DNA from: Nocardia asteroides
GTDB taxonomy: Bacteria > Actinomycetota > Actinomycetes > Mycobacteriales > Mycobacteriaceae
Direction of reading: 5' to 3'
Length of the DNA: 64,000 bases
Assembly (NCBI RefSeq): GCF_900637185.1
Contig: NZ_LR134352.1
Location: 1,984,001-2,048,000, forward strand
Below the pieces are notes generated by a model that was not told the DNA's origin, did not search any database, and was given only the letters and a program-made list of their open reading frames with translations. Positions 1-8,030 of this stretch are shown here, in pieces; the stretch's first letter is position 1; the number at the start of each line of letters is the position of its first letter. The translations under genes were made by a program, and so were the position numbers.

Positions 1-2
1 GC

Positions 3-80
3 CACGAACACAACCACCTCACCAGCGCCGACGCCCTCGCGGTGATCGGCCCCATCCTGGCCAGCCACCTCCGCGGCTAG
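3..80 (+). CDS. 3' end of an unidentified gene (partial)
   Basis: An open frame enters from the left edge and ends at a TAG at 78-80. The 25 visible residues end in PILASHLRG and include HEHNHLTS. This is too little to assign a family; a hydrolase tail is possible but unproven. The gene converges on the leftward gene that ends at 120, and I see no clear terminator hairpin in the 39-bp gap. Confidence 0.45.
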   Translation, partial: HEHNHLTSADALAVIGPILASHLRG

Positions 81-119: not shown

Positions 120-896
120 TCAGACGTAATCCGCCGCGGTCAGCAGGTGGGGCCAGAACTCCGACCACACTGTTTCGGCATCGTCGCCACGGGCGACGTG
201 TTCGTAGAGGCGCCCGTACCAGCTGTCGACCGAGTCCGGTGACGTCACGGGTGTGCTCAGATCGGTCACCGGACAGGGCGGGAGGGAATGTCGGCTGCGA
301 TCACCGAGCAAACGGAGCAGGGCCGACTGCGCTGACGAGTTCACGATTCCGGCGGTGAGCATTCCGGTCACCGCGATCCCGTCGAATTCACGAGCACACT
401 CGAGCCCTTCCAGAACCGCTGAAGCCCATTGCAATTGACGCGTTCGCTCATCTCGATTCGGCCCGAACAATGCCTCTTTGTAGGCAACGACAGCGTCAGC
501 GGGGTCGCAGGTGACCACAAGTTCGGGATGTAGGCCGAGCTCGATGGCAGCGGTCATCCACGACCGTAGCAACCACGGCATACGCGCGTCGTACAGGACG
601 ATCGACCGCCCGTGTGGCAATTCCGCCAGGAATCTGGTGCAGCGTTCGCGCGCCGACCGATCGAAGGCCAGCGCCGCGAGAATCGCGAAGGCGGGCAGAT
701 CAGGCCCGCGCCCACCGACATCCGCCAGCGCCTGCCGATTGATATCCACCACCGCTTGTGACTCGAAGAAGCCGTCGGGTGCTCGCGGGTGTCCTGCCGT
801 ACTCGGGTAGGGAATCTCGAATCCGTTGGCTGAGAGGATACGACTCAGCCAGGCGCCGCCGGGGCCGCCGTCCCCGCTGATGATGACTAGTCGCAC
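120..896 (-). CDS. sulfotransferase-like protein of the RiPP-type cluster
   Basis: This 258-residue protein has the layout of the bacterial sulfotransferase-like family. There is an N-terminal P-loop-like turn (SGDGGPGGAW, residues 7-16), then a GFFES..VV..IN segment near residues 42-52, then LYDARMPWLLRSW near residue 100 where relatives carry LKDPR..LLP.W. The usual SGTS/T phosphosulfate-binding loop is degenerate and the KDPR lysine is replaced, so PAPS-dependent sulfation is uncertain. It is the last gene of the leftward cluster and overlaps the glycosyltransferase-like gene upstream by 10 bp, so the two are probably translationally coupled. A role in tailoring the peptide product is inferred from position only. 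Confidence 0.6.
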   Translation of the reverse strand: MRLVIISGDGGPGGAWLSRILSANGFEIPYPSTAGHPRAPDGFFESQAVVDINRQALADVGGRGPDLPAFAILAALAFDRSARERCTRFLAELPHGRSIVLYDARMPWLLRSWMTAAIELGLHPELVVTCDPADAVVAYKEALFGPNRDERTRQLQWASAVLEGLECAREFDGIAVTGMLTAGIVNSSAQSALLRLLGDRSRHSLPPCPVTDLSTPVTSPDSVDSWYGRLYEHVARGDDAETVWSEFWPHLLTAADYV

Positions 897-1948
897 CGGC
901 CGATTTCGCGGTCGATCTCGGACAACACGTCGGACAGGTCCGCGCCCAGCCCGTTCAGCCGATGGGGGTCATGGAACAGTCGGAGCGTGCCGGGAACAAG
1001 TGTCCCCAGAGCCGCGGCGCTGTTGGCGGGGACGCGCATCGACGGGTCCACGGACATGCTCAGAATCGTGAGATAGCGAGCGATCAGGAGGGAGCATGTG
1101 CACGATGGTTCCGTGAACGCCGGGTCCCTCGCCGCCAGTACGCCCTGCAACTGCGGTACGGCCGAGCGGACCGCGCGATCGATCAGCGGGAAATGGTGAG
1201 GACGCATATGCAGCCAGGCCGCGAACCCCCGTTTCCACCAGATGCCATCGACACGTTCCAACACGTGCAGTGCCAGATCCTGATAGCGAATGTAGGGGAC
1301 TTCGGCAACGGAATCCGGCCACGGTCGCGTGGTCATGGGCACGGCGGTGTCGTCACGGAACAGCACCGATCGGCGTAGCCCACGAGTGTCGTTGCCGATC
1401 AGGCTGGGGGAGAGGTCGTGTTCGACCAGGGTTGGTACCACCGAATGCGCCACGATGCGCTCAGCCGCAAGGAATCTGCCCAAGGCGACGTCTTCGGTGA
1501 TGTACTGCCTGCCGCGGTAGGTCTCCGCGAAACGCAGTGCGATCTCGGAGGGCAAAGCCATTCCCAAGGTGGGCACGTAAGGGTCACCGACAGGCACCAG
1601 GTGGCGATCCATCAGGTGCGCGGCACGCGCGATCGCACCGGTTCGCGAACCCCATTCCGCGTAGAGGGAGACCGGCCCGTCGAGCGTCGCGACGAGCTCG
1701 TCGACCTTGGCTGCGAAGTCATGGCACACCTGTGCGTCGTCCATCAAGACCACATGCCACGGACGCCTGCTGGGATCGGCACGGCTCCACGCGGCCACCG
1801 CGGTCGGTAGTGCCGATGTCGGTTCGTCGGGGAAAGGGTCGAAGGCGATGGCGTCTTCGGGCAGCGACAGCCGAGCGCACAGTTCGGCGGCCTGACGTTC
1901 GCGTGACGGGTGTGCCATTACCGACAGTGAGAATTGTTCGCTATCCAT
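887..1948 (-). CDS. GT-A-like glycosyltransferase (GT25/phage-type)
   Basis: The ATG at 1948 gives 353 residues. The segment HVVLMDDAQVC near residues 65-75 matches the VLxDDA metal and sugar-nucleotide site of GT-A-fold enzymes. It is followed by PVSLYAEWG and later by YITEDVALGRFL (a second acidic cluster) and DLSPSLIGN, the order seen in GT25-like and phage-associated glycosyltransferases. The C-terminal 150 residues are not recognised. The gene overlaps the exporter upstream by 8 bp and the sulfotransferase-like gene downstream by 10 bp, so it sits inside the RiPP-type operon. Transfer of a sugar to the modified peptide is a reasonable inference, but the acceptor cannot be read from sequence. 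Confidence 0.6.
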   Translation of the reverse strand: MDSEQFSLSVMAHPSRERQAAELCARLSLPEDAIAFDPFPDEPTSALPTAVAAWSRADPSRRPWHVVLMDDAQVCHDFAAKVDELVATLDGPVSLYAEWGSRTGAIARAAHLMDRHLVPVGDPYVPTLGMALPSEIALRFAETYRGRQYITEDVALGRFLAAERIVAHSVVPTLVEHDLSPSLIGNDTRGLRRSVLFRDDTAVPMTTRPWPDSVAEVPYIRYQDLALHVLERVDGIWWKRGFAAWLHMRPHHFPLIDRAVRSAVPQLQGVLAARDPAFTEPSCTCSLLIARYLTILSMSVDPSMRVPANSAAALGTLVPGTLRLFHDPHRLNGLGADLSDVLSEIDREIGRCD

Positions 1949-3164
1949 CGTTTTCCGATCGTTGTGTGCCCAGTGCGAAACTTGCCAGGGCGCCGCCCGC
2001 CATCGCGACGGCACCGAATACCAGCCAGCCGAGGTCTCCGATGGCGATGCATGCGCTCAGGACCACGGGTGCGATCAGGCGCTGCAACGACCCGGAGAGC
2101 CCGTAGCTGGCCAGCACCCGTTCGCGGTAGCCCTCCTCCGCGATCTCCATGACCCGGTAGTAGCCCGCGAAGGACGCCAAGGCCGCGCCGGCACCGATCG
2201 CCGCGGCGAACAGCAGAATCGTCACGACCCCTGCGTTCCCGGAGACTGGAGCCACTCCTATCAGCACGCACGCCGCACCGACCAGCAGTGTTCCGAGGAC
2301 CAGATAGCGGCGACTGGCTCCAGGTGGCGCGAAGAGTCGGCCGGCGAAGAAGGTCATCCCGGTACCGATCCATGTAGTGACTGCGACCGCCACCCCGACC
2401 CAGCCGATCATCGAGTTGTGGTGGATCGAAAGGTAGATCGGCAGGCCGAGCCCGGTAGCCGAGCCCGCGATGTCGACGATCGCGAGTGCCGCGAGGAAGA
2501 GCGCGATACGTCCGCGCGGCCACCCGTCTGTCCAGGGCAGCTTCTGCGGTCGCAGCGCGGCGTCGGCGGGCAGTCGGGCGAACAGCAGAGCGTTCACGAA
2601 GAAGGAGACACCGTTCAACACGATCAGCCACCCGAACCATGACTCCGGCACCGCCAGCTGGAAAATCGCTGCGACCAACGCGCCTGCGGCGAGCCCGAAC
2701 GTCTGCGTCAGCTGACGCGCGGCGAGCACCGAGGACTGCATCGCCCCGGCGCTGACTCGCTGGACGACGGCTTGACTCGCGGGAAACGCGAGACGGTCCA
2801 GCACCAGCACGCCTAGCAGGACTCCCGCCAGCACGCTCGGCGGCAGCACGAGCGCGAGAACGACGTTGAGGGCGCCGCGGGCCGCGCTCAGCGCGACGGA
2901 CACATTTCGCGCGCCCCACCGCTCGGCCACGACCGCGCCGACCGGCGCCAGGAACAGCGCGAGGAAGGCCCCTGAGCTCAGCACCAGCGTCAGCGTCGAG
3001 ACCGTGACGCCCCCGCGTAGCACCCACAGCACGAAAGTCGCGCTGTACAAACCGGTTCCGAATGTGTTGAGGACCGATGCCGACAGAATCGTCCTGACCT
3101 TCGAGTCGGCCAGGATCGTCCGGTAGTCGGCGAGCTGTTCTGACAGGAAACGAGATTGCGTCAC
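1941..3164 (-). CDS. MFS exporter of the RiPP-type cluster
   Basis: This is a 407-residue major facilitator protein with about twelve hydrophobic segments, for example around FGTGLYSATFVLWVLRG and AFLALFLAPVGAVVAERWGARN. The latter is the typical motif A loop between helices 2 and 3. The GTG at 3164 is preferred because AGGAA lies just upstream and it starts 7 bp after the YcaO stop; an upstream ATG at 3254 would overlap YcaO and add a non-conserved leader. Its place between modifying enzymes suggests export of, or immunity to, the cluster's product. It resembles the MFS_1/EntS branch of drug and siderophore exporters. Confidence 0.75.
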   Translation of the reverse strand: MTQSRFLSEQLADYRTILADSKVRTILSASVLNTFGTGLYSATFVLWVLRGGVTVSTLTLVLSSGAFLALFLAPVGAVVAERWGARNVSVALSAARGALNVVLALVLPPSVLAGVLLGVLVLDRLAFPASQAVVQRVSAGAMQSSVLAARQLTQTFGLAAGALVAAIFQLAVPESWFGWLIVLNGVSFFVNALLFARLPADAALRPQKLPWTDGWPRGRIALFLAALAIVDIAGSATGLGLPIYLSIHHNSMIGWVGVAVAVTTWIGTGMTFFAGRLFAPPGASRRYLVLGTLLVGAACVLIGVAPVSGNAGVVTILLFAAAIGAGAALASFAGYYRVMEIAEEGYRERVLASYGLSGSLQRLIAPVVLSACIAIGDLGWLVFGAVAMAGGALASFALGTQRSENDG

Positions 3165-3171
3165 GTGGTTC

Positions 3172-4113
3172 CTAGCTGAAGGGATGATCCGGGATGCCGT
3201 CGCGCTGCGGCTGAGGTGCGCCGATGCCGATCGGTACGCCGCGTACCAAAACAAGCTCCGGCCACTCGATCAACGCGTACACGACAATGTGCTTCGACAC
3301 CATCTCAGCGAATTCCGCCACGGCTCCGGCTCGTCCGGAACCAGCGATCAACCGCTGGAAATGCCCTCGCCGTGCGCCCGAAGCCGAACCTCGCAGACTG
3401 GCGTAGCGGTGGGTCTTCGCTTCCGAAGAATAGGTCGGCCGACGGTGCGACAGCACGGCATCCAAGAGCATCGTCGCTTCCTCCTGCGCGTGCCGAACTG
3501 CTTCGGCGATCTCGGAGCGCACGGCACTCCCCACGACGAACACCTGTTCGTCCAGCCGTTCGGCCACGTGCCACGCGAGCACGGAGCCGTCGCCGAGCGG
3601 CCACCACACGGAGGTGGACGAGTCGTCGGAGTGGAGTAGGTTCGCCGGCTCCTGCAGATTTCCGTACCACAGCGACTCCGATACGTGCCGCTCCAGGACT
3701 TCGGCGACAGCGTTGTTTCGCGCGGTGTCGGCACAGGTGTGGATAGCTAGGCCCGTTGCGCCCGTGGGGAAGAGTCGCTGTCCGCCAACGTGCCAGGGTC
3801 GGGGCACAACGGTCTCGAAGGTTCGGCTGGTTGCCTGTCTGCCGTCGCGAAAAGTGCCGTGCACCAGCCTGCCTCGGCTGGCGGTCACCTCGGCATTCAT
3901 CAGGAGGCGTTCGAAACACTCCCACCGGGAGACGTTCTCGCTGTCGTCCCGCCGACCCGATGCGGCATGACCGAGGGCGTACCGAGCCTCGGTGTTCGAT
4001 CCCGAACGCCAGCTGATGCCGGTCGAGGCGATCCACACTCGGGGATCGGACGCAGCGGTGTGCGCGATCGTGCGGAACGGCAGCGCGAACAGCTGCTCGG
4101 CGTCAGAGAGCAT
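3172..4113 (-). CDS. YcaO-family peptide-modifying enzyme
   Basis: YcaO proteins use ATP to activate backbone amides, forming azolines, thioamides or amidines. The 313 residues carry the three ATP-site signatures. SRWECFER (residues 62-69) matches the first SxxE..ER motif. GLAIHTCADTARNNAVAEVLERH (about 121-143) matches GLA.G.T..EA...E.IERD. EIAEAVRHAQEEA (201-213) matches the third. The protein is shorter than the usual ~400 residues. Its C-terminus ends PDHPFS, a degenerate form of the proline-rich tail of azoline-forming members. No E1-like/ocin-ThiF partner and no TfuA gene are adjacent, so the chemistry is open. It overlaps the HExxH gene by 11 bp. Confidence 0.8.
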   Translation of the reverse strand: MLSDAEQLFALPFRTIAHTAASDPRVWIASTGISWRSGSNTEARYALGHAASGRRDDSENVSRWECFERLLMNAEVTASRGRLVHGTFRDGRQATSRTFETVVPRPWHVGGQRLFPTGATGLAIHTCADTARNNAVAEVLERHVSESLWYGNLQEPANLLHSDDSSTSVWWPLGDGSVLAWHVAERLDEQVFVVGSAVRSEIAEAVRHAQEEATMLLDAVLSHRRPTYSSEAKTHRYASLRGSASGARRGHFQRLIAGSGRAGAVAEFAEMVSKHIVVYALIEWPELVLVRGVPIGIGAPQPQRDGIPDHPFS

Positions 4114-5104
4114 CCACGGATTCCTTGCAGGTCCGCAGTATTGCCTCTCCTGCTTCGGTCAGCTCGGCGTGTTGGCGAATCGTCTGATAACCCTTGTAGA
4201 AACGGGTGATCGAGCCGTCGCGCCACTGCTCGACGCTCGCGCGACCCTCGACGCGCGCGTAACCGTCGAGGACTTTGGCGATTCGGCTCAGGACGAACAT
4301 CGCATGGAAGATCCCGTACAACGGCCGAGGATCGGGCCGGATCGGGGCTGTGAACCTGGCTCCGTGCCCGTTCGTGATCAGCGGATCGAACGTCATGATG
4401 CTGTGCAACACCGTGTGCGACGTTTCATGGGTGATGTGATCGAGGAAGTACAGCGTCGACTCCTCGGTCTCCAAGCCGCTGTTGGGCACACGGAGCAGGA
4501 TCATGCCCCAGCAGCGCACGCTGGTGATCCCTCTGGCAGCGATTCCGTCGAACAGCCTCACCCCGGCGACGAGCTGGTCGAATTCGGCGAACATACCAGG
4601 GTCGACCTGCCGCAGAACCGGCAGTGACTCCTCGACCCACCGCTTCGCCGTCGCGTAATGCTCCGCGTCGAGCCGTCGAGTGATCGGCAGTCCGCCGTTG
4701 GCTTGCCGAGGCCCTTCGGGTCCGGCCAGGAAATCGTAGACTTCGGAGTCCAGAGTATCCCACTGAAGATTCGATATCGCGAAACTCTTGTTGTACAACA
4801 GTCCGCGGTCTGCGGCGGACTGTATCTCGCCCAGCGCGGACGAGACTCGCCCGAAGTTCTTCGCTGCTATCCCGGTGTGGAGCTTCCAATGCAGGGTATA
4901 GAGAAGTGGGTTGAACTGGCGCGAGGTATCCAACTGCTCGATTTCGTTTGCCGCGTTTTCGGCATGCTTGCCGAATACCCTTCCGGCGGAGTGGCAGTAG
5001 GCGATCAGATCAGTCTTGGCCATATCATTTATGCGCCGTCGCAGAATTTCTGCACGAGATTCGGACGGTTCTGCATGGAATATCTCTGAATGTGTTGCAG
5101 TCAT
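4103..5104 (-). CDS. HExxH-type putative 2-oxoglutarate-dependent peptide beta-hydroxylase
   Basis: The ATG at 5104 gives 333 residues. The motif HETSH at residues 226-230, preceded by YFLDHIT, is the HExxH metal site. About 25 residues later APIRPDPRPLYGIFHAMFVLSRIA gives the xPxRxDPRPxxGxxHxxxVFxR signature of the 'HEXXH motif-containing putative peptide modification' family. Members of that family have been shown to be 2-oxoglutarate-dependent beta-hydroxylases of RiPP precursors. The N-terminal 200 residues are the family's helical region. The gene follows the precursor after a 65-bp gap containing a hairpin and overlaps YcaO downstream. An Asp, Asn or His of the precursor is the expected kind of target, but this cannot be read directly. 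Confidence 0.8.
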   Translation of the reverse strand: MTATHSEIFHAEPSESRAEILRRRINDMAKTDLIAYCHSAGRVFGKHAENAANEIEQLDTSRQFNPLLYTLHWKLHTGIAAKNFGRVSSALGEIQSAADRGLLYNKSFAISNLQWDTLDSEVYDFLAGPEGPRQANGGLPITRRLDAEHYATAKRWVEESLPVLRQVDPGMFAEFDQLVAGVRLFDGIAARGITSVRCWGMILLRVPNSGLETEESTLYFLDHITHETSHTVLHSIMTFDPLITNGHGARFTAPIRPDPRPLYGIFHAMFVLSRIAKVLDGYARVEGRASVEQWRDGSITRFYKGYQTIRQHAELTEAGEAILRTCKESVDAL

Positions 5105-5124
5105 TTTCGGCCTTGTCGTCGGTG

Positions 5125-5163
5125 CTTCGGGGTGCCCGCGCTTTCGGCACGGGCACCCCGAAG
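5125..5163 (-). terminator. 14-bp hairpin between precursor and enzyme genes (attenuator-like)
   Basis: Bases 5125-5138 (CTTCGGGGTGCCCG) are perfectly complementary to 5150-5163 around an 11-base loop. The stem lies wholly in the 65-bp gap between the precursor stop and the HExxH start. No U-run follows, so it may be a partial terminator or an mRNA-stabilising 3' end. Either would leave much more precursor mRNA than enzyme mRNA, as is common in RiPP operons. Confidence 0.65.
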
Positions 5164-5169
5164 GTTGCA

Positions 5170-5292
5170 TCAGCTGATCTGACAGGTGGGCGATGCCACC
5201 ACCAGGTAGCTCGCGTCGACCTCGTCGAAGGTCAGCTCGGCAGGCTGGGTCACATCCCCGGCCTGCTCGGTGAGCTCGGCAGTCGTCTCCAT
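5170..5292 (-). CDS. putative RiPP precursor peptide, 40 residues
   Basis: This short gene begins with ATG at 5292 and ends with TGA at 5170-5172. It is preceded by a near-ideal ribosome binding site, AAAGGAGGTGA, six bases upstream. The peptide starts METTAELTEQAG, is acidic through the middle (TFDEVDA) and ends ASYLVVASPTCQIS. An acidic, Glu/Asp/Thr-rich leader followed by a short tail with one Cys, one Thr, one Pro and Ser residues is typical of RiPP precursors. It sits between the PhyH-like and HExxH genes, which with YcaO are the expected modifying enzymes. The leader-core boundary is not marked; ASYLVVASPTCQIS or SPTCQIS are candidate cores. No protease is obvious in the cluster. Confidence 0.75.
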   Translation of the reverse strand: METTAELTEQAGDVTQPAELTFDEVDASYLVVASPTCQIS

Positions 5293-5297
5293 GTTGT

Positions 5298-6119
5298 TCA
5301 CCTCCTTTCGTGGGTTGTGGGTGAAGCTGTGCGACATAGCCGCAAACTGCGGATGTCGAGTTCTGGAAGGCTGCTACGCACGTCGGCGCGGCAATAGGAG
5401 AATCCGATGCCGCGGCGGGGCTCGGCACTGCTGTTGCGGCCGGACCAGTGGACCGTCGTTCCCAGATGCGCGCTCGCGTCGCCCGGTTCCAGTTCGACCG
5501 GGGTGCCTGCGCCGCTCCATTCGGGGATGATCAGGCCGGCTGCGTCGTCGCGAGTCGATCTGACGTGGCGATGGACGCCGGACCTATGGCTGTCGGGGAC
5601 GAAATAGAGACAGCCGTTGTCGATTCCAGCGCGGTCGATCGAAATCCATACGGTGACGAACTCCAGCGGAGTCATGTGCAGCCAATGGGCGGCATCCTGA
5701 TGAGGAGGCTTCGGCGTGCCGGTTGTCGCTGGCTTCATCCAGGCGGTCACCGCCACGAGGCGGACGTCGGTGGCGAGGCAGCGGGCAGCCAGCTCCGCTG
5801 GGGCACCGTCGGCCGCGAGAGCAGCGATGAGCTCCGAGTTCCTGGCAAGATCCTTAATTTTCCGCACGCTGCGGACGTGGCCGGCCCGGATGGTCTGAAC
5901 TCCCGTTCCGGAGTATTCGGCGATATCCAGCTCGGCCGACAATGTTGCGACCATTTCGGGCGGCAGCATCTGCCGTTTGATTCCGAAACCCCTCGAGGCG
6001 ACGGCATCTGCGCACCGTTGCAGTTTGTCGATCTCGCGATTTCCGCCGGCATCGGACATAAGTGAGTTAGCGATGAAGAATCCCCCCTCGGCCACCCCTC
6101 GAATGGCGCAGATTCGCAT
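5298..6119 (-). CDS. PhyH-like Fe(II)/2-oxoglutarate-dependent oxygenase
   Basis: This is a protein of up to 273 residues of the phytanoyl-CoA dioxygenase (PhyH) family. The metal triad is visible as PHQD (His140, Asp142) and TVHWSGRN (His224), and the 2-oxoglutarate-binding arginine is in EPRRGIGF (Arg235/236). It is the first gene of the leftward cluster. Its TGA lies inside the precursor's Shine-Dalgarno sequence, so the two are tightly coupled. The start is uncertain: ATG at 6119 and ATG at 6059 (MSDAGG) both have weak ribosome sites. PhyH enzymes hydroxylate small molecules and also tailor RiPPs and NRPS products. Modification of the adjacent peptide is inferred from position. Confidence 0.8.
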   Translation of the reverse strand: MRICAIRGVAEGGFFIANSLMSDAGGNREIDKLQRCADAVASRGFGIKRQMLPPEMVATLSAELDIAEYSGTGVQTIRAGHVRSVRKIKDLARNSELIAALAADGAPAELAARCLATDVRLVAVTAWMKPATTGTPKPPHQDAAHWLHMTPLEFVTVWISIDRAGIDNGCLYFVPDSHRSGVHRHVRSTRDDAAGLIIPEWSGAGTPVELEPGDASAHLGTTVHWSGRNSSAEPRRGIGFSYCRADVRSSLPELDIRSLRLCRTASPTTHERR

Positions 6120-6470
6120 TCCGTATGTTCTGAAACGTAACAGCGGGCCGCGGTGCCATCAACGAACCCGGTCGGCCCGGGACGGCTAACAGCAGATCAG
6201 CCGCTGGAAACTTCTGTCCGGTCCGGACACTCGCGCGACTGCCACCCGCTGCTCGAAGCCGGTGCAGCGGAGCTCGGCCGCAGCGGTGGTGCCTACGCGG
6301 CCGGGAGGCCGCGCATGCCAGTGCTGCCGACGAGTCGAGATCTGCGAGAAACCTTGTCCATCAACGGAACCTGACGTACTCGCGGCGCGTCCAAATCGAT
6401 GTAGGCACGTTGCAGGGGTCGGGTGCGTCCGACGGGCCTGGACGGAAACAGCGGTTCGGAGGGGTCTCGA
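6120..6470. promoter_or_regulatory. divergent promoter region of RiPP-type cluster and STAND gene
   Basis: This 351-bp stretch separates the leftward cluster from the rightward STAND-type regulator and must hold both promoters. I see no convincing coding sequence and no long perfect inverted repeat in it. A GGAGGGG ribosome site lies at its right end, immediately before the ATG at 6471. Confidence 0.4.
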
Positions 6471-8030
6471 ATGGCAAGTGGCGGTCCGATTCGGTCGGCG
6501 GTGCAGAGCGCAGGGTCGGCGCGCGAGGAGTTCGCGGAGGAGTTCAACGCCTTGTACGTGGCCTCAGGTTGTCGCTCGCTACGGTCATTGGCGGATTCCG
6601 CGAAGCGCAAGTCCAAGGGCGGACCGGTGCAGGGGTGCGCGGTATCGGCACAGCGGATCAGTGACTGGAAGGCCGGCCGAAACGTACCCGCCCGATTCGA
6701 CGTGCTGCACCCCGTGCTGCTGGTACTCATCGAGTCGGCTCGCCGCCGTGATGCCAAGGTGGGCGTTGTTCTGAGCGTTCCAGCTTGGCGCCAACTGTGG
6801 AACAGAGCCCAGGCAATCCGCGCAGTGTCGGCGCACACGGCAGGGTGGGCATCGTCTGCCGATATGGCGGGTGGGTGCTTCACCGGAAGGGAAGTCGCCA
6901 CACGCGCGCTGGCAGACTTGGTCGACACTGCGGTCGGGGCGCCGGATGGTCGCATCATCGCGGTAACCGGTGCCAGTGGAGTCGGCAAGAGCACGCTGCT
7001 GAACGTGGGGTTGACGGCTCGGCTGAAAGAGACGAAGCCACAGCAGCTCACGGTCCGGACGATCGTTCTCGGTGGGAGTACAGCGCAAACGCTGGCCTCG
7101 ATATCGGAGGAGCTACGTCGAGCACGGGAGGACGGTCGAGGAATGGGAAGGGTGGGTGAGCTGGAGGAGGGAGTTGCTCATGTGGTGGTCGTCGACCAGG
7201 TGGAGATGATGTTCGGTGACCCGGTGCCTGCGGACAGCCGAGAGTGCATCGTCGCACAGCTCGGGCTGCTGACCGAGGTCGCCGTGGTCATTGTCTGCGT
7301 TCGCAGCGATCACATCCCCGACTGCTACGAGTTCCCTCTGCTCGCGGAGGCCCTCGACAGTCGTCACTACGTACTCGAACCCATGAACACCGCCGAACTC
7401 CGCTCGGTGATCCGGACCGGCCTACATCGTCCCGGCGGTGACGCTGATCCCGGGCTGGAGGAAGCCCTGATCGCTACGCTCTGTGGGTTCCGCGGAGATA
7501 CCGGATTCCGAGGTCGTGAACCGGCTGAGCTCCCAATCCTGACCGGCATCCTGCGGTCGATGGCCGAAGGCCGGCACATGGCGTGTCGGCACGTCGACAT
7601 CTACCGGAGGAACGGTGGGGCCGAAGGTATCGTGCAGGTCGTCGCCGACAACCTCTGGAACAGGTTGTCGTCTGAACAACGTGCCGAGGCCGAGCAGATT
7701 CTGCTGGGACTGGTTTCCGTACATACCGATCTCGGGTACGTGCGTCGTCGCCTCCACCATGGGGACGCCGCGCGACTGCGGGATCGACGCGGCGTGCACG
7801 CCGTGGTCCTCCGTGAACTGATAGACGCACGGCTGGTCACTGTGGATCTGAACGAGCTGTATCTGAGCCACGACCTGGTGCTGACCTGGAGTCGTCTCAG
7901 GACATGGCTCGAGGCCGGGATCGGCGCCGGCGAAGGTGGTCAGCACAGGGTGCGGCGGCCTTCGGACCGTCCGTGGTTGGTCAGGGGCACCGACCGCGAA
8001 CTCGTTTCGGTGAACCGTTCGGCGTCGTGA
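6471..8030 (+). CDS. STAND-type (nSTAND1-like) NTPase regulator without WD40 repeats
   Basis: The ATG at 6471 is chosen because GGAGGGG precedes it; the product is 519 residues. The N-terminal ~100 residues (AREEFAEEFNALY..SLADSAKR..VSAQRISDWKAGRNVP) form an XRE/HTH-like module common in actinobacterial nSTAND proteins. A P-loop NTPase follows, with Walker A GASGVGKST near residue 168 and Walker B VVVVDQVEMM near 237. A winged-helix-like region then ends the protein near residue 480. The WD40 or TPR sensor repeats usual in this family are absent. It is divergent from the RiPP-type cluster, and regulation of that cluster is the simplest inference. A defence-type role is an alternative. Confidence 0.65.
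   Translation: MASGGPIRSAVQSAGSAREEFAEEFNALYVASGCRSLRSLADSAKRKSKGGPVQGCAVSAQRISDWKAGRNVPARFDVLHPVLLVLIESARRRDAKVGVVLSVPAWRQLWNRAQAIRAVSAHTAGWASSADMAGGCFTGREVATRALADLVDTAVGAPDGRIIAVTGASGVGKSTLLNVGLTARLKETKPQQLTVRTIVLGGSTAQTLASISEELRRAREDGRGMGRVGELEEGVAHVVVVDQVEMMFGDPVPADSRECIVAQLGLLTEVAVVIVCVRSDHIPDCYEFPLLAEALDSRHYVLEPMNTAELRSVIRTGLHRPGGDADPGLEEALIATLCGFRGDTGFRGREPAELPILTGILRSMAEGRHMACRHVDIYRRNGGAEGIVQVVADNLWNRLSSEQRAEAEQILLGLVSVHTDLGYVRRRLHHGDAARLRDRRGVHAVVLRELIDARLVTVDLNELYLSHDLVLTWSRLRTWLEAGIGAGEGGQHRVRRPSDRPWLVRGTDRELVSVNRSAS

Follow-up and report, generated by a model that had tools for sequence, protein, structure and literature searches.

A candidate modified-peptide operon pairing an HExxH-type hydroxylase with a stand-alone YcaO protein in Nocardia asteroides

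Gene content and conserved core of the operon

We analyzed a 64,000-nucleotide stretch of the Nocardia asteroides genome (NZ_LR134352.1, positions 1,984,001 to 2,048,000; hereafter the window), which is part of one 6.98-Mb contig and carries seven genes that, judged by sequence, very probably form a cluster for a ribosomally synthesized and post-translationally modified peptide (RiPP), encoding a short peptide together with an HExxH-type hydroxylase and a YcaO protein as modifying enzymes (Table 1). All seven genes are open reading frames (ORFs) and run leftward from position 6119 in the order PhyH-type dioxygenase, 40-residue small ORF, HExxH protein, YcaO protein, major facilitator superfamily (MFS) protein, glycosyltransferase (GT)-like protein, and a protein of unknown family. 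The start of the YcaO gene overlaps the HExxH gene by 11 bases, the start of the GT-like gene overlaps the MFS gene by 8 bases, and the last gene overlaps the GT-like gene by 10 bases, in agreement with the original prediction of seven closely packed leftward genes.

In order to find related loci, 5.8 billion proteins were searched with the HExxH protein, limited to sequences that share short words with the query, which gave 28 matches. Alignment A1 comprises 24 of these 28 relatives (P0021, P0026, P0027, and P0030 were excluded as partial or weak) and was used together with the window protein to scan 84,980 species genomes. The scan gave three loci, one each from Pseudarthrobacter sulfonivorans (L006), a Streptomyces sp. 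(L007), and Nocardia camponoti (L008). In each of them a small ORF ends shortly upstream of the HExxH gene, and the order precursor, HExxH, YcaO is present in four species of three genera whose proteins are divergent. A short precursor gene that lies beside genes for modifying enzymes and is kept together with them across species is what marks a RiPP cluster, and this is the arrangement found here, so that the predicted RiPP cluster appears well founded. The original prediction had named a missing conservation of the gene set and an absent or disrupted precursor frame as findings that would speak against it, and neither was seen in the loci read.

The C-terminal segments of the four precursors, taken without gaps from the stop codon back (ELTFDEVDASYLVVASPTCQIS, VLEFEPVEESYLAITSPAVQIS, EITFGEIPESYLSHSSQLMQAD, and EFEIDSIDDSYIAEVQHTMQSS), gave a sum-of-pairs BLOSUM62 score of 221 over 22 residues, compared to a maximum of 64 when ORF ends of these loci were drawn at random 100,000 times. 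The L008 ORF was chosen by eye among the upstream frames, which biases the score toward similarity, but the margin is still wide, and the predicted 40-residue precursor is thereby corroborated by similar ORFs in three other species. The precursors are 23–40 residues long, that of N. camponoti (L008:9879-9950) having only 23 residues, and share the motif F/I..[VI]..SY[LI]. A Gln residue stands three residues from the C-terminus in all four of them, followed by exactly two residues (IS, IS, AD, and SS), whereas no position after SY[LI] carries Ser, Thr, or Cys in all four cores. The pattern SY[LI]-7-Q-2-stop, which was derived from the four precursors themselves, occurred only at the precursors in 330,617 bases of loci (some of them mutually overlapping, five loci excluded); 40 simulated sequences of 64 kb did not contain it.

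The precursor gene of the window is preceded by a strong Shine-Dalgarno sequence, and G-rich sites are present upstream of the precursors in L006, L007, and L008. Between the precursor and the HExxH gene, a 76-nt fold of the window hairpin reaches -40.3 kcal/mol (z -6.64; none of 200 shuffled sequences was equally stable). L006 and L007 carry hairpins of different sequence at the equivalent place (100-nt folds of -43.5 and -52.7 kcal/mol, given as unshuffled energies), while the gap in L008 comprises just 23 bases, for which we do not claim a separate hairpin. Such a hairpin between precursor and enzyme genes would probably keep the enzyme level lower than that of the substrate. A promoter and terminator scan yielded nothing useful.

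Table 1. Features of the operon and its surroundings (positions in the window unless stated otherwise)
Feature	Position	Strand	Remarks
Unknown-family protein, labelled sulfotransferase-like by eye	120..896	-	label based on a P-loop-like N-terminus recognized by eye
GT-like protein	887..1948	-	PHROG 854 "glucosyltransferase" (phage family), 1.3e-11
Putative MFS exporter	1941..3164	-	GTG start at 3164; MFS_1 58.5 bits (well above the cut-off), frame read from 3197
Compact stand-alone YcaO, 313 aa	3172..4113	-	overlaps HExxH gene
aKG-HExxH-type peptide hydroxylase (aKG, alpha-ketoglutarate), 333 aa	4103..5104	-	HETSH at 4415-4429 (residues 226-230)
17-bp hairpin	5125..5163	-	between precursor stop and HExxH start; fold energy compared with shuffles
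Precursor peptide, 40 aa, METTAELTEQAGDVTQPAELTFDEVDASYLVVASPTCQIS	5170..5292	-	similar ORFs before HExxH in L006, L007, L008; similarity test
Shine-Dalgarno sequence of precursor, AAAGGAGGTGA	5298..5308	-	strong; contains PhyH stop codon
PhyH-type Fe/aKG dioxygenase	5298..6119	-	PF05721 87.0 bits; longest frame
nSTAND1 NTPase	6423-8030	+	PF20703 185.7 bits; divergent from operon
Nonribosomal peptide synthetase (NRPS) frame	contig up to 1984080 (window 1-80 and leftward); L002:1903-16080		convergent to operon

The two core enzymes and their distribution

The HExxH protein matches TIGR04267 with 78.4 bits (cut-off 40), a model that is also passed by the relatives tested (both copies of L007, and L008), and residues H226, E227, and H230 are invariant across 25 HExxH sequences. 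Its fold matches the HExxH domain of ChlH (PDB 8s5f, 15% identity) and SjiH (PDB 22ob, 14% identity); a literature search on SjiH, which like all literature searches here covered mainly work outside subscription journals, retrieved no relevant paper. In Streptomyces sp. B-S-A12 (L007:9965-12060), two tandem HExxH genes that are 51% identical precede the YcaO gene, which perhaps stands for two hydroxylations. A further relative, P0024 (35% identical), comes from a metagenome-assembled genome named Bacteroidota, so that the HExxH subfamily may extend beyond actinobacteria.

The YcaO protein passes the PF02624 cut-off of 25.7 with 28.4 bits, the match being restricted to 49 residues (110-158). 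Together with the scores of the HExxH and PhyH proteins, which lie above their profile cut-offs as well, this upholds the three enzyme identities that were originally predicted. The predicted model of the YcaO protein aligns with McbD over 278 of its 313 residues and also matches an archaeal YcaO, a heterocyclase, and MusD; the protein thus has the YcaO fold over its length and is short without any part visibly missing. Compared with the ATP/Mg-site residues of E. coli YcaO, E65/E68, E138/E141, and E212 are invariant in six YcaO sequences and the equivalents of Ser184 and Arg286 differ, and the YcaO proteins of this family have 312-323 residues and end in PFx. A YcaO profile search gave at least four relatives, the L007 and L008 proteins not being among its matches. 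Neither an E1/ThiF-type partner nor an azole dehydrogenase was among the profile matches of the operon genes, which sets the operon apart from clusters for linear azole-containing peptides and thiazole/oxazole-modified microcins. TfuA had no match in the N. asteroides genome, in which the operon differs from thioamide-forming YcaO-TfuA systems; the control for this search gave a match in one of 14 genomes, that of M. acetivorans. Both absences had been anticipated. A sulfur-delivery gene was likewise not among the profile matches of the operon genes.

YcaO genes were detected by tblastn in four of the seven HExxH loci examined with their flanks (the window, L006, L007, L008, L046, L047, and L048). 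Contigs of equal size suggest the same pairing for two further YcaO relatives, P0002 with P0003 (590565) and P0032 with P0007 (1627812). Among 150 Nocardia genomes, the YcaO protein was found in two, N. asteroides itself and N. camponoti, and among 298 genomes of the order also in two, the second one weakly (1.5e-4). Relatives of the HExxH protein at E <= 1e-20 are present in 5 of 148 Nocardia genomes (that of N. asteroides counted, one relative remote) and, with a capped number of candidates scored per genome, in at least one of 394 genomes of the class (the query's own), in at least one of 345 in the family of the L007 genome (L007 itself), and in at least one of 121 in the genus of the L006 genome (L006 itself). 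In a 397-genome sample of the order, 58 genomes had an HExxH match at E <= 0.001, and in just two of them the match spanned almost the entire model (E < 1e-90). A tblastn search of plasmids returned four records with 51-57% coverage and at most 33.9% identity.

Two other Nocardia loci (L048:9693-12224 and L046:8381-11030) contain HExxH and MFS genes and no YcaO match. Their precursor-like ORF differs and follows F..LP.[ST]P.D..Q.AAQFG (L048 peptide MGASFNNLPTSPLDSIQNAAQFGVWGVAEDHTA), so these loci possibly represent a second undescribed HExxH peptide family. L047 is a remote HExxH relative.

Accessory and neighboring genes

The remaining operon genes recur to a lesser extent than the precursor and the two enzymes. 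Among the three other YcaO-bearing loci, a PhyH gene was found by tblastn only in L006, where it lies at the equivalent place and its product is 39% identical. The L006 relative does not have most of the first 40 residues, and the start of the window PhyH gene at 6119 is therefore uncertain; the true start possibly lies downstream, e.g., at the ATG of residue 22. The original assignment of this region to a PhyH frame thus stands, whereas its outer boundary does not stand firmly. The window MFS protein shares 33% identity with that of L006 (8e-40); L007 carries an MFS gene that tblastn does not link to it, and no tblastn relative was found in L008. The L008 gene that follows YcaO appears by eye to be unrelated to transport, and L008 may show the cluster in a minimal form. 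L006 and L007 contain methyltransferase genes that are mutually unrelated by tblastn.

The GT-like protein has no Pfam match, its label being carried by the PHROG family, while the protein encoded at 120-896 had no match in NCBIfam, Pfam, PHROGs, or PDB sequences, so that its predicted sulfotransferase-like nature found no support there. Both proteins were absent by tblastn from the three other YcaO loci, L006 being cut by a contig end about 1.4 kb beyond its MFS gene, and had no match among 70 other genomes of the family. The conserved core therefore consists of precursor, HExxH, and YcaO genes, and the predicted co-occurrence applies to these three and not to the full gene set. Since the accessory genes mostly do not recur, double hydroxylation, glycosylation, and sulfation, which had originally been put forward for the peptide, would be at most particular to the window species.

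On the left, an NRPS frame, 4,725 codons in length, has its end roughly 40 bases away from the operon. It comprises five condensation, three AMP-binding, and four carrier stretches as well as a thioesterase, and probably belongs to a separate natural-product cluster. On the right, the nSTAND1 NTPase, whose PADLOC matches are weak, is a possible regulator.

Proposed pathway, alternatives, and relation to known systems

We consider it rather probable, from what the genes encode, that the operon directs hydroxylation of the peptide by the HExxH enzyme followed by activation of its backbone by YcaO. The segment F/I..[VI]..SY[LI] would serve as recognition sequence for the HExxH enzyme itself, given that no RiPP recognition element (RRE) domain was seen and that the segment is similar to F..L..S.L in the L048 peptide. 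With Fe(II), O2, and 2-oxoglutarate, the HExxH enzyme would then hydroxylate a side chain within the last ten residues, most likely that of the conserved Gln. In an ATP-dependent step, YcaO would O-phosphorylate a backbone amide close to the hydroxylated residue and hand the activated amide to a nucleophile, for which the new beta-hydroxyl would be the most economical choice and would lead to an oxazoline. In the window species, PhyH may add a second oxidation and the GT-like protein may attach a sugar to a hydroxyl; the MFS protein would export the product, and leader removal would fall to the operon's own enzymes or to a protease whose gene lies elsewhere. Both central steps have counterparts in the literature: the HEXXH enzymes PflC and PosC introduce a beta-hydroxyl at Gln of a RiPP core (PMC12636437), and the daptide YcaO uses a nucleophile that is produced by earlier modification steps (PMC12338566). 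That the operon represents an undescribed RiPP class, in which YcaO cyclizes an HExxH-made beta-hydroxyl onto the preceding amide, the hydroxyl being carried by the conserved Gln and not by Ser, Thr, or Cys, is a tentative proposal that we regard as unlikely at present.

Several observations weigh against the proposed pathway. In a hand alignment on motifs, Ser184 and Arg286 of E. coli YcaO, which we take to be ATP-site residues, correspond to A123 and H208, and a literature search on the YcaO ATP-site residues gave no relevant paper. The hhalign comparison with E. coli YcaO was insignificant, a PDB profile search with the YcaO alignment returned no YcaO and a single chance match (E 0.6), and just one of four distant relatives (L008) passes the PF02624 cut-off, L006 and P0032 being below it and L007 having no match. 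The HExxH subfamily occurs without YcaO in L046, L047, and L048 (tblastn), so the HExxH enzyme is not bound to a YcaO partner. Furthermore, the Gln conservation is based on just four precursors, we are not aware of any oxazoline formed from hydroxylated Gln, and the pathway is read from the genes.

The nucleophile might also come from outside, with YcaO forming a backbone thioamide or amidine from sulfide or ammonia independently of the hydroxyl. This appears somewhat unlikely: the genome has no TfuA match and no sulfur-delivery gene is among the operon profile matches, although the absence of a Ser, Thr, or Cys fixed at one position in the four cores would agree with it. It would also agree with the thioamidation of uL16 Met82 by E. 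coli YcaO next to the RoxA-modified Arg81, where a YcaO and a hydroxylase act on neighboring residues (PMC13063428), and with amidine formation from ammonia by YcaO proteins (PMC12338566). Alternatively, the HExxH enzyme may cut the backbone oxidatively near the C-terminus and leave a C-terminal amide, so that YcaO acts on the new terminus. PflC and PosC remove a C-terminal tetrapeptide besides hydroxylating Gln (PMC12636437), and the constant distance of two residues between the conserved Gln and the end of all four precursors would fit such a cut; the trailing residues themselves are variable, and we regard this route as unlikely.

It is quite unlikely, in our view, that the HExxH enzyme only hydroxylates while YcaO, like MusD, uses ATP to act as a peptidase or to trim the C-terminus, removing the leader or the last residues, given that the YcaO model matches MusD no better than cyclodehydratases and that RiPP clusters without a protease gene exist (PMC12636437). 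Finally, the genes could be chance neighbors with unrelated metabolic functions and the small ORF no substrate at all. The incomplete recurrence of the GT-like, sulfotransferase-like, and PhyH genes would be in line with this, but the precursor similarity test, together with a gene order that four species from three genera have in common, makes it highly improbable.

Known systems share some features with the operon. The pfl and pos clusters of Pseudomonas likewise have a stand-alone aKG-HEXXH enzyme, a Gln in the precursor core, and no protease gene described nearby, but their precursors have a nitrile-hydratase-like leader and the partner is a pair of MNIO (multinuclear nonheme iron-dependent oxidase) and nitroreductase, in contrast to the 23-40-residue precursors and the YcaO partner of the Nocardia operon; ChlBH is a radical-SAM (S-adenosylmethionine) fusion, unlike the Nocardia HExxH enzyme (PMC12636437). 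A YcaO without E1/ThiF or TfuA partner is also described for bottromycin (PMC6511847), klebsazolicin, and the daptide protein DapY. For DapY a PxPxP C-terminus is reported, whereas the Nocardia-type YcaO ends in PFx and has an HExxH partner. The YcaO-TfuA cluster std combines YcaO, an oxygenase, and an MFS protein as well (PMC13174530), and a TfuA cluster shown in PMC8120280 includes a PhyH gene, as does the Nocardia operon. The Nocardia operon differs from YcaO-TfuA clusters in that it has no TfuA and in its precursor and oxygenase family. Among the papers searched, we found no description of HExxH and YcaO paired in one RiPP pathway.

Since both enzyme families are already known, the operon would represent a new RiPP family that is built from known enzyme types, and the same enzyme pair with a matching peptide in distant soil bacteria looks like an undescribed modified-peptide family. 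Because the YcaO proteins score near or below profile cut-offs, the precursor motif offers a handle for finding more clusters. The pathway would be compact, with two core enzymes that join two chemistries on substrates of 23-40 residues. If the hydroxylase makes the nucleophile of YcaO, ring formation by YcaO would no longer require an encoded Ser, Thr, or Cys residue, and, if this is true, azolines would be formed that are not directly specified by the genetic code.
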